DNA from: Planctomycetota bacterium
Lineage (GTDB): Bacteria > Planctomycetota > Planctomycetia > Gemmatales > Gemmataceae
DNA length: 64,000 bases
Assembly (NCBI GenBank): GCA_021807595.1
Contig: JAKBCS010000003.1
Location: 28,624-92,623, forward strand
Reading direction: 5' to 3'
Of this stretch, positions 56,608-60,258 are shown piece by piece. The notes beneath the pieces were generated by a model. The model did not search any database. It saw only the letters and a program-made list of their open reading frames with translations, and was not told where the DNA came from. The stretch's first letter is position 1, and each line of letters starts with the position of its first letter. The position numbers and the translations under genes are program-made.

Positions 56608-57219
56608 ATGTCATCTTTCGTCAACCTCGTGGCCGATCTCGCGCCCGGAAGGCCGCTGATCGACAATAGCAACGTCTTTTACTCCATCGTCGGCGGAGCG
56701 ATGCTGTTGTTATTGCTGCTGATTCTGTTCTTGCGGCGCGGTCGTCGGCCGTCGGTGGATGCCGAGGCAGGGCTTGTCGAAAAGCTGGTCGATTATCCGC
56801 CGGCGGGTCCGGGACCGTCGCGCTTATTCCTGCACGGGCAGCCCGTGCGTTTACGATTGGTGGTGATGGCACCGATGGGCAAACGGCCCTTGCCGTCCGA
56901 CATTGCAGTCGAACCGGCGCTCGAGCGCGTCGTGCGCGGCTTGGGAGGCATCGTGCGGCAAGATCGGCCTCGCGTGCGCGCTTGGCCGGCACAACTCAGC
57001 CAACACGGCTTCGCACCCACATTCTTTCGGCTGAGCCAGCGCCCGGAACCGGCCGGCAAGCCTTCGCCCTGGCTCTTCGCCGCCGGACCCGTTCGCGCCG
57101 ACGGCCAGCAATTCCTCCTCGGTCTCGTCCTGTTCGCCGATGTCTCGACTGCCGACAACAACTTGATCTTGGATGCGACTCAGTGGAGCGAATGGTTCCG
57201 CGTCGGTCCCAGGGCCTGA
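56608..57219 (+). CDS. Single-pass membrane protein of unknown function
   Basis: 203 residues from MSSFVNLVADLAPGRPLIDN. One strong membrane helix (YSIVGGAMLLLLLLILFLRR, residues 27-45) is followed by a soluble domain with basic and aromatic patches (PSRLFLHGQPVRLRLVVMAP, LFAAGPVRADGQQFLLGLVL). The 125-residue upstream part of the ORF is Arg-rich and is discarded; GGGAG lies about 10 nt before the ATG. It precedes the RNA ligase gene by 99 bp. No family is recognised. Confidence 0.7.
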   Translation: MSSFVNLVADLAPGRPLIDNSNVFYSIVGGAMLLLLLLILFLRRGRRPSVDAEAGLVEKLVDYPPAGPGPSRLFLHGQPVRLRLVVMAPMGKRPLPSDIAVEPALERVVRGLGGIVRQDRPRVRAWPAQLSQHGFAPTFFRLSQRPEPAGKPSPWLFAAGPVRADGQQFLLGLVLFADVSTADNNLILDATQWSEWFRVGPRA

Positions 57220-57318: not shown

Positions 57319-58572
57319 ATGGAATTGCGTCTCGATCTCTTGTTGCAGAAGTTGCGCGACCGTCCCGCTGCCGTGCTCGACGCCATCGACCGCGATCCGC
57401 TTTTGCTGAAGCGCGAGAGCGGATCGCTGGTGTTGGCCAATGCCAGTCAGGTCTTGTACACCCCGCAAGAAGAACATCAACTCTACGCCAAGGGCATCGT
57501 CTATCGCCGCCATCCCTACCGTCTGGTGTCGCTGCCGCTAGTCAAGATTTACAATCTCGGCGAGCGCGAGGTGACGGTGGCCGATTTGATCGCGCTGATG
57601 GGCGAGCCAAACGTCTCGTTGCGCTTTCCGCGAAAAATCGACGGCTCGTTGATCCAGGTGTTTCGGCACGAGGGGCGCGTCTGGTTTACGACGCGCGGAG
57701 CCATTGAAGGAGCGACGTGGCGCTCCGACCGTGAAACGGGCGACGAGTTCGATTATCTCGGCGCGGCCCGCCGTCTCGCCGTCGAGCGCTATCCGCGCCT
57801 GCTCGACGACGATGCCTTGCCCGAAGGCCGCACGTTGATTTTCGAGCTGATTCATCCGTTGGCGAAGAAGATAACGGACTACGGCGAGCGAGCGGACTTG
57901 ATCTTGTTGGCTTGCTTCGACGTTCGCCGATGGGCCTACGCCCGCTATGAGGAAGTCGTGGACCTTGCCGCGCGTCTTCAGCTTGTCGCGGTGGATGCCT
58001 ATTCCCCACGCGGGGCGACGCTGAGCGAACAGATCGAGGATCTTCTGCAATCGCTGGCCGGTTCCGATCAGGAAGGCAGCGTCCTCCAATTTGAGAACCG
58101 AGTCGAGGCGATCTATCGGGTCAAGGTAAAGTCGCCGGACTATCTCCGCCTGCTGCGCGCGATGTCCCAATGCACTTACGAGAATCTCGTCGCCCTCGTA
58201 GACAACAATTCCGATCTGAAAAGTTGGCAAGACGTGGAAGCCTACTTTCATTCGCTGGGAAGGGAGACGATGCCCGAAGAGATCTTGCAAATGTATCGTC
58301 CGCATTTCGATCGATTCCTGGCTTATCTCGCCGCTTGCGAGCGGCTGCGCCAATGGGCGCTGGCGACTTCTGCCGACCTGGCGCGCCGTCTTGGGGACGA
58401 GAAAGACACCCGAATCCAGCGCAAGGGGTTTGCTGCCGTGGCGTCGCGCTTCCCTCGCTCCAATCTGCTCTTCGCCGCGTTCGACAACCGCCTCGACGCC
58501 GACCGGATGCGTCGTCTCATCCGCGATCCCGACGAAGCCCGGCAAGCGCTCGCCGATCTCGACTTGGTTTAG
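57319..58572 (+). CDS. T4 Rnl1-like RNA ligase
   Basis: 417 residues from MELRLDLLLQKLRDRPAAVL. The nucleotidyltransferase motifs are in order: motif I RKIDGSLIQV (the AMP-accepting Lys of KxDGS) near 102, TTRGAIEGATW near 120, motif IIIa LIFELIHPLAKKI near 177, motif IV EGSVLQFENR near 256, and motif V YRVKVKSPDYL near 269. A helical C-terminal domain (about 290-417) fills the place of the T4 Rnl1 tail. The enzyme would seal RNA nicks or repair cleaved tRNA through a ligase-AMP step. No kinase/phosphatase end-healing gene is next to it. Confidence 0.85.
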   Translation: MELRLDLLLQKLRDRPAAVLDAIDRDPLLLKRESGSLVLANASQVLYTPQEEHQLYAKGIVYRRHPYRLVSLPLVKIYNLGEREVTVADLIALMGEPNVSLRFPRKIDGSLIQVFRHEGRVWFTTRGAIEGATWRSDRETGDEFDYLGAARRLAVERYPRLLDDDALPEGRTLIFELIHPLAKKITDYGERADLILLACFDVRRWAYARYEEVVDLAARLQLVAVDAYSPRGATLSEQIEDLLQSLAGSDQEGSVLQFENRVEAIYRVKVKSPDYLRLLRAMSQCTYENLVALVDNNSDLKSWQDVEAYFHSLGRETMPEEILQMYRPHFDRFLAYLAACERLRQWALATSADLARRLGDEKDTRIQRKGFAAVASRFPRSNLLFAAFDNRLDADRMRRLIRDPDEARQALADLDLV

Positions 58573-58635
58573 GCGTCCCCTTGGATTCGTTCGCTCGACT
58601 TCGTCCGCCATGTTCCGCCGTTCGACGCGACGGCA

Positions 58636-58761
58636 ATGCGGGAAGTCGAGGGGCAAGGAGAATTGCGACAATCGTTATCATTCGACCGCGATGATCCTCC
58701 CCGTCTCGCCCAAACGGCAATCGCGTTCGCTCTCGCTTGGCAGAACGCGAAAGACGGGTAA
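58636..58761 (+). CDS. Possible 41-residue ORF in frame with the RNA ligase
   Basis: The frame of the RNA ligase gene stays open after its TAG stop for 62 codons (ASPWIRSLDFVRHVPPFDAT...). The part from the ATG at 58636 (MREVEGQGELRQSLSFDRDD) ends at the TAA at 58759-58761. The composition is coding-like. It could be a separate short gene, or the ancestral C-terminus of the ligase cut by the TAG. No ribosome-binding site is evident. Confidence 0.25.
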   Translation: MREVEGQGELRQSLSFDRDDPPRLAQTAIAFALAWQNAKDG

Positions 58762-58818
58762 AATGAATTGTTGGGATTCGATGAGAGCATCGCGCCGCTT
58801 CCGCGCAACCGCGTCCGA

Positions 58819-60258
58819 ATGGGATCAGCCATGGATTCGATGGATGTCAATGTCTTCAGGCAAATGATTCTCAAACTCGGACTTGCCACCGAAGCCCAAA
58901 TGGCGGAAGTGCGCGACGAGATGGGCGATGGAGTGGACTTGATCCAATTTCGCAGCGCGATGGAACGCAAGAGTTTTCTGACGCCCTGGCAGAGCGGCAA
59001 AGTGCTGAAGGGCGACCTCGATGGCTTTTACCTGGGCGGCTATCGCATTCTCTACAAGATATCGTCGGGGAGCTTTGGCCGGGTATTCCGCGCCGACGAT
59101 CCGCGCAGCGGCCGCGTCGTCGCCGTCAAGGTGCTGCGCCGGCGTTGGAGCGAAGATCAGGCGCGCATCGACCTGTTCATCCGCGAAGGCAAAGTCGGAC
59201 TGACGCTGAAACACCCCAACATCGTCGAGGTGTTGGCCATCAGCCGCGACAATTCCTCCGGCCAATACTATCTCGTCATGGAGTTCGTTGAAGGCGGCAA
59301 CCTCCGCGAGATTTTGCAAATCCGCAAGAAATTAAATGTCGCCGAGTCGCTGCGCATCGTCTCCGACGCCGCCAGCGGACTCGCTTACGCCTACAGCCGA
59401 GGCATGGGGCACCGCGACATCAAACTGACGAACCTGCTCATCTCCAGCACGGGCGAGGCGAAGCTGGTGGACTTCGGTTTGGCTCAATTCTTTTCGACGC
59501 TGGCCAAAAAGGAAGAAGAGAAGGTCGATCGCACCGTCGATTATGCCGGTCTGGAGCGCGCCACTGGTGTGAAATCCGGCGATGTGCGCAGCGATATTTA
59601 TTTCCTGGGTTGCGTTCTGTACGAGTGCATGACGGGGCGCTCGCCGATCACCATGACGCGCGACAAGAACTCGCGCATGCGGAAAGAGCGGTTCGAGGAA
59701 GTCAAACCGATCAACCCCCACGAAATCGACGGGCCGCCCAGCGTCCTCTCGTTGGTGGAAACCATGATGGCGCTCGACCCCAAACAGCGCTACCAAACGC
59801 CGACGCAGCTGGTCGATGCCATCAAGACCGTGCGCCGCGATGTCGAGGGCAAGGCGGGCAAGGGCGATGGACGCGCGCCGTCGCGCTCGGTCTTCGTCGC
59901 CGAACGCGACGAGCATTTGCAAGACGTATTGCGCGACGGCCTTAAGGATCAGGGGTATCGCGTATTCATGGCCAGCGACCCGTTACGGGCATTGGACCGC
60001 TACCGGCAGCAGCCCTACGACGCCTTGATTGTGGACGCGCGGACCACCGGCGAAGACGGCTTTCGCGTCTTCGAGCATATCGTGGAGGAAGCGGCGCGAA
60101 AACGGCTGACTTGCGCCGCCGTTCTGCTCTTGGGGCAAGATCAAGCCAGTTGGGCAGGTCGATTGCACGAAGCGCCGCACGTCGGTGTCTTGGTGCAAAA
60201 CATCACGCTAAAAAGTGTTGCCCGCAAACTCAAGGAACTGATCGAGGCGGCACATTGA
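58819..60258 (+). CDS. Ser/Thr kinase fused to a response-regulator receiver domain
   Basis: 479 residues from the ATG at 58819 (MGSAMDSMDVNVFRQM). An N-terminal helical part (about 10-65) precedes a complete kinase domain (about 75-350): Gly loop SSGSFGRVFRADD, Lys in VAVKVLRR, HRDIKLTNLLI, DFGLA and VRSDIYFLGCVLYECMTG. The APE-type motif is replaced (DYAGLERATG). After a linker, a receiver domain runs from SRSVFVAERDEHLQDVLRDG to the C-terminus, with the phospho-acceptor Asp in DALIVDARTTGEDG. It joins two signalling styles in one cytoplasmic protein. Its target is unknown. It follows the RNA ligase gene. Confidence 0.88.
   Translation: MGSAMDSMDVNVFRQMILKLGLATEAQMAEVRDEMGDGVDLIQFRSAMERKSFLTPWQSGKVLKGDLDGFYLGGYRILYKISSGSFGRVFRADDPRSGRVVAVKVLRRRWSEDQARIDLFIREGKVGLTLKHPNIVEVLAISRDNSSGQYYLVMEFVEGGNLREILQIRKKLNVAESLRIVSDAASGLAYAYSRGMGHRDIKLTNLLISSTGEAKLVDFGLAQFFSTLAKKEEEKVDRTVDYAGLERATGVKSGDVRSDIYFLGCVLYECMTGRSPITMTRDKNSRMRKERFEEVKPINPHEIDGPPSVLSLVETMMALDPKQRYQTPTQLVDAIKTVRRDVEGKAGKGDGRAPSRSVFVAERDEHLQDVLRDGLKDQGYRVFMASDPLRALDRYRQQPYDALIVDARTTGEDGFRVFEHIVEEAARKRLTCAAVLLLGQDQASWAGRLHEAPHVGVLVQNITLKSVARKLKELIEAAH

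Follow-up and report, generated by a model that had tools for sequence, protein, structure and literature searches.

The chromosome of a member of the Gemmataceae encodes a stand-alone RNA ligase resembling that of phage T4. This raises the question of what job such an enzyme does in a bacterium and whether the genes on either side of it take part. The ligase gene lies in a window of 64 000 nucleotides (contig JAKBCS010000003.1 of assembly GCA_021807595.1), to which all coordinates for this locus refer. It stands between a gene for a membrane protein and a gene that fuses a kinase with a receiver domain. The original prediction, made from the sequence of the window, read the three genes as a controlled unit for RNA repair or defence.

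Identity of the ligase

The ORF at 57319–58572 encodes a full-length T4 Rnl1-type RNA ligase, and we regard this assignment of enzyme class, already made in the original prediction, as very probable. The gene and its predicted functional features are as follows.

57319..58572 (+), T4 Rnl1-type RNA ligase, 417 aa (Pfam, PHROG, HMM–HMM and fold comparisons; 22 Gemmataceae orthologues; dN/dS)
57634..57636 (+), Lys106, predicted nucleophile of motif I (K-x-D-G-S/T), which aligns with T4 K99 and does not vary among 16 orthologues
57844..57846 (+), Glu176 of motif III, invariant and aligned with T4 E159
58072..58077 (+), Glu252-Gly253 of motif IV, invariant and aligned with T4 E227-G228
58123..58131 (+), Lys269 and Lys271 of motif V, invariant and aligned with T4 K240 and K242
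58174..58569 (+), predicted all-helical C-terminal domain, residues 286–417 (DSSP on the model; HMM–HMM alignment with phage Rnl1)

Searches against RNA ligase families placed the protein among them. It passes the Pfam cut-offs for PF09511 (RNA_lig_T4_1; 1.6e-11, 44.9 bits, cut-off 28.3) and PF09414 (RNA_ligase; 27.5 bits, cut-off 27), while PF16542 is absent from its Pfam matches. PHROG 562, the T4 RnlA family, matches residues 54–368 at 1.5e-30 and is also matched by 16 of 16 orthologues. The strict NCBI equivalog model for T4-phage RnlA, TIGR02308, scores 21.4 bits, below its cut-off of 242. Judged by these profiles, the protein is of the same kind as T4 RnlA and is not an orthologue of the phage enzyme. 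With the single ligase sequence as query, a sequence search of solved structures gave no match; the ligase profile retrieved T4 Rnl1 at 6e-4.

Among 16 aligned orthologues, K58, K76, K106, D108, G109, R126, E176, E252, G253, K269 and K271 are invariant. When T4 Rnl1 and further relatives from phages and plasmids are added, K76, K106, E176, E252, G253, K269 and K271 align with T4 K75, K99, E159, E227, G228, K240 and K242, respectively, and these seven residues are also invariant in the phage set. The motifs had been correctly located in the original prediction as I, IIIa, IV and V; the label IIIa does not hold, since the segment FELIHP, which contains E176, aligns with T4 E159, which we take to be motif III.

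An AlphaFold model of the ligase built from 16 sequences (mean pLDDT 87, pTM 0.79) has a predicted nucleotidyltransferase fold followed by a helical C-terminal domain of the Rnl1 type. Its best PDB match is T4 Rnl1 (2c5u), over the full length (E 3e-11, TM-score 0.41–0.44), and the second-best fold family is fungal Trl1 (E about 1e-9 to 1e-8). Because the global TM-scores of the best matches are only 0.41–0.48, with large rmsd, weight was placed on the E-values and the motif alignment. In addition, hhalign against phage Rnl1 proteins gave a probability of 99.4%, with an alignment that extends through the C-terminal domain, and an RK-[FY]-A motif of this domain is common to the Gemmataceae ligases and phage Rnl1. 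The residues and the modelled fold suggest that the protein is able to seal RNA.

Co-occurrence with Pnkp

A search with the kinase domain revealed an intact bacterial Pnkp gene in the same genome, adjoining Hen1 on contig 23, which is separate from the ligase contig. Both are well above their cut-offs (Pnkp, TIGR04075, 1356 bits against 750; Hen1, TIGR04074, 691 bits against 340), and this Pnkp carries the PF16542 ligase domain. RtcB is encoded on contig 18. PNK3P (PF08645) was sought in this genome and not found.

Of the 95 Gemmataceae genomes compared, 22 encode the ligase and 19 of these have Pnkp; among the 73 without the ligase, 17 have it (Fisher p 1e-7). Further tests were run because genus and genome size could cause such an association. 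It persists when genera are counted (Pnkp in 7/8 with the ligase and 9/31 without; p 0.004), within genus g17 (11/12 and 1/7, respectively; p 0.002), under within-genus permutation (p 0.003) and with genome size as a covariate (p 0.001). These tests correct in part, with phylogeny taken into account at the level of genus. PF13166, intended as an unrelated control, gave no matches: at E 1e-20, no PrrC/RloC-type nuclease was detected in the 95 genomes, so that internal damage is not due to a PrrC/RloC ribotoxin.

Other observations count against a partnership. G002, G028 and G461, all draft genomes, encode the ligase and have no Pnkp match over the cut-off, and in none of the loci read does the ligase adjoin Pnkp or Hen1. 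As Pnkp has a ligase domain of its own, a second sealer is not obviously needed. A relative in a Streptomyces phage adjoins a tRNA gene and lies near a gene annotated as a polynucleotide kinase, an arrangement that was counted in favour of partnership.

An active Rnl1-type ligase could instead have another job, such as rRNA repair, circularization of small RNAs or work on mRNA fragments, with lifestyle or large genomes accounting for the link with Pnkp. Both genes are commoner in large genomes, they are not physically linked, and the ligase has unrelated metabolic neighbours in different clades. There is also a precedent in an archaeal ATP-dependent RNA ligase that circularizes C/D box sRNAs (PMC9014305). 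We nevertheless consider this explanation somewhat unlikely, as the association with Pnkp survives both the genome-size covariate and the within-genus permutation, and the protein has a C-terminal domain of the kind found in T4 Rnl1.

Distribution and descent of the ligase

Searches for orthologues covered whole genomes and 84,980 species. Orthologues (E < 1e-100) are present in 22 of the 95 Gemmataceae genomes; in 392 genomes drawn across the phylum, apart from the gene of the window itself, there were just two remote matches. In the phylogenetic tree, the stand-alone ligases of the Gemmataceae form one monophyletic clade (support 100/100) with a long stem and deep internal splits. This clade is apart from the phage, plasmid and fusion ligases, among which the branching order is unsure owing to long branches. 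The dN/dS ratio is 0.24 against the closest relative (L027) and 0.22 against a congener (L028, 66% identity), which indicates a maintained gene under purifying selection. An accessory chromosomal gene, inherited within the Gemmataceae, is the best explanation of these data.

The neighbours of the ligase differ from locus to locus. Three of the other ligase genes come after a set of four genes that encode ketoacyl-synthase, hydrolase, AMP-ligase and dehydrogenase domains, four loci have an FAD oxidoreductase upstream, and in two a gene of the DAHP/KDO-8-P synthase type comes after the ligase. Given this frequent change of neighbours, the ligase is best read as a single-gene function.

Recent capture of a counter-defence ligase from a phage would be in keeping with PHROG 562 as the closest profile, and with the ability of T4 Rnl1 to counter PrrC. 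Such an origin is very unlikely. Inspection of the called genes of the window revealed no phage genes, the ligase is under purifying selection, and the long common stem and deep splits of the family do not suggest a recent arrival. The phage proteins are only 22–25% identical among the matches listed, and one scan of viral contigs (IMG/VR) found no relative of the ligase. A viral origin was disfavoured on these grounds, the phage and plasmid matches being remote. The defence or anti-defence role offered in the original prediction is not directly supported: there are no phage genes nearby, the scan of viral contigs gave no relative, and no PADLOC model matches the ligase.

The ligase differs from T4 Rnl1 at the motif Ia position, where Arg126 replaces T4 Lys119, and at the position of T4 Arg54, which is Lys58. 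These changes would fit a nucleotidyltransferase of Rnl1 fold that no longer ligates RNA and adenylylates another target, and we know of no member of the Gemmataceae clade that has been assayed. Loss of ligation is highly improbable, however: the Rnl1-type C-terminal domain is retained, and the catalytic residues in the alignment, among them the two lysines of motif V, are invariant.

Neighbouring genes

The features flanking the ligase gene are as follows.

56608..57219 (+), single-pass membrane protein, 203 aa, a neighbour and not part of the ligase system; homologues in 33/59 genomes
58737..58764 (+), promoter-like element TTGGCA-16-TAAAAT of the kinase gene; the sole such site in the region, conserved in congeners
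58831..60258 (+), Ser/Thr kinase with a partial receiver match, 475 aa (Pfam; PDLC04055 family in 54/59 genomes)

Both neighbours were recognized in the original prediction, the upstream one as an uncharacterized single-pass membrane protein. Both Pfam matches of the kinase-receiver protein are present, although that to the receiver covers only profile positions 1–68 of 111. Its start had been placed at TTG 58768. This codon follows a conserved -10-like element at a distance of only a few bases, for which reason ATG 58831 is most likely the start. In two congeners, the open frame of this gene is about 900 aa.

A scan of the region found a single promoter-like site, against 0.9 expected by chance. 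Four congeners keep both hexamers, their spacing and most of the spacer, even though the ligase is not upstream in two of them, and the kinase-receiver gene is thus probably a separate transcription unit. The PADLOC PD-T4-6 model PDLC04055 matches the protein over its full length with 577 bits. This was rejected as an argument for a defence gene because the family is class-wide (54/59 planctomycete genomes), and the match is likely to be a false defence call by this model.

No ligase or kinase-receiver gene was found within about 1.5 kb on each side of 18 membrane-protein homologues. What does recur beside the membrane protein, in several genera, is a divergent PD40-like gene, whose N-terminus bears the sequence signature seen in the PD40 beta-propeller gene of L028. 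In two congeners this membrane protein of the Gemmatales has shrunk to a stub of 55–67 aa, with the PD40-like neighbour retained; the stub is followed by the ligase in G002 and by a MoaA-type gene in G001.

It is scarcely credible, then, that the membrane protein and the kinase-receiver join the ligase in a module for RNA repair or defence under signalling control. In favour of such a module, strand and order are the same in two close species, and the three congeners with the ligase all have the membrane-protein gene, whole or as a stub, ahead of it. The complete trio, however, is confined to the window and to the 91% relative, which is also the only place where another kinase-receiver gene adjoins a ligase. 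The kinase-receiver lies elsewhere in the other ligase genomes checked (on another contig in the more distant congener G002), and the promoter-like element that belongs to it is conserved even in the absence of the ligase. The membrane protein recurs beside the PD40-like gene, not the ligase, and occurs without the ligase, as does the stub in G001. A conserved trio was rejected by the neighbourhood comparison, gene order not being kept across the ligase genomes. An operon model that was attractive but had little support is thereby set aside for this locus.

Comparison with known RNA repair systems

T4 RNA ligase 1 (RnlA; PDB 2c5u, 5tt6 and 9do4) shares with the Gemmataceae ligase its catalytic residues, motif order, fold over the full length and RK-[FY]-A motif. 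The two are 22% identical (374 and 417 aa, respectively), and in the Gemmataceae protein there is an additional helix at the N-terminus as well as an insertion around residues 132–143. It is chromosomal, whereas RnlA is viral, and a tail-fibre role is not indicated for it. The second-best fold family is the adenylyltransferase domain of the fungal tRNA ligase Trl1, which joins RNAs with a 2'-phosphate (PMC11494293) and is fused to healing domains; the window ligase stands alone.

In the Pnkp–Hen1 and Pnkp1–Rnl–Hen1 complexes, cleaved RNA is likewise healed and sealed, and Pnkp and Hen1 are encoded in this genome. The sealer in these complexes is the Pnkp ligase domain (PF16542) or an equivalent Rnl; the window ligase, by contrast, belongs to the PF09511 type, and the genome has it in addition to an intact Pnkp.

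Ligases of the Rnl1 type have been annotated in bacteria before, including some that lie beside rtcR on Rhizobium plasmids. One such ligase (NZ_CP020951) is also stand-alone, with 376 aa and 23–28% identity. It adjoins RtcR, an RNA-repair regulator, and a gene annotated as encoding an RNA-binding protein, neighbours that the Gemmataceae ligase does not have. This arrangement (L121:2902-5928) suggests RtcR-controlled repair of the Rnl1 type.

The Gemmataceae themselves encode single-chain fusions of a P-loop kinase, a metallophosphoesterase and an Rnl1-type ligase (L021:7920-10163; L022:9202-11430, reverse strand; L023:129-2387). These trifunctional proteins of 742–752 aa have the same PF09511 domain as the window ligase and fall in a different clade from the stand-alone ligases. 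They have the layout of Pnkp with a different ligase domain, and were counted in favour of a Pnkp–ligase partnership. At three further loci (L024:8576-10620, L025:8377-10421 and L026:14635-16682), a gene with HAD-PNKP and AAA_33 kinase domains adjoins a gene for a short Rnl1-type ligase. The L026 pair lies among phage-like genes, and in genome G035 two near-identical copies lie about 384 kb apart.

Proposed function

On balance, we lean towards a stand-alone ligase that seals Pnkp-healed, probably tRNA-like RNA, with its neighbours having no part in the process. RNA repair, as suggested in the original prediction, is thus the best reading of the gene. The enzyme would adenylylate itself on Lys106 in an ATP-dependent manner, pass the AMP to an RNA 5'-phosphate and join this end to a 3'-OH. 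Nicked tRNA-like RNAs would be the likeliest substrates; tRNA is the leading guess because the helical C-terminal domain is common to T4 Rnl1. By its title, a 2007 paper by Wang and colleagues, cited in PMC11494293, assigns to this domain of T4 Rnl1 the specificity for tRNA repair. The 5'-phosphate and 3'-OH ends would probably be supplied in trans by the Pnkp encoded beside Hen1 elsewhere in the genome. Both the tRNA substrate and the partnership with Pnkp are thus putative. T4 offers an established precedent for this division of labour, with the ends processed by Pnkp and then ligated by Rnl1 (PMC4411300; PMC11494293).

The ligase may, more specifically, be a second sealer of the Pnkp–Hen1 pathway, acting on substrates that the Hen1-gated Pnkp ligase cannot seal. 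We think this unlikely; if true, cells would have a repair system with two ligases in which the design of phage T4 is combined with that of bacteria.

The literature search found no paper on Gemmata Rnl1-type ligases, and as far as it shows, a clade restricted to the Gemmataceae, and its statistical association with Pnkp, appear to be new. Such ligases may already be listed in the survey of RNA repair systems that Burroughs and Aravind published in 2016.

If the sealing of Pnkp-healed RNA is the correct reading, the Gemmataceae ligase would be a cellular counterpart of the T4 Pnkp and Rnl1 tRNA-repair pair, in bacteria that own Pnkp–Hen1 and RtcB. In culturable relatives (Gemmata, Zavarzinella), one could then ask what makes a single cell retain RNA ligases of three different kinds.
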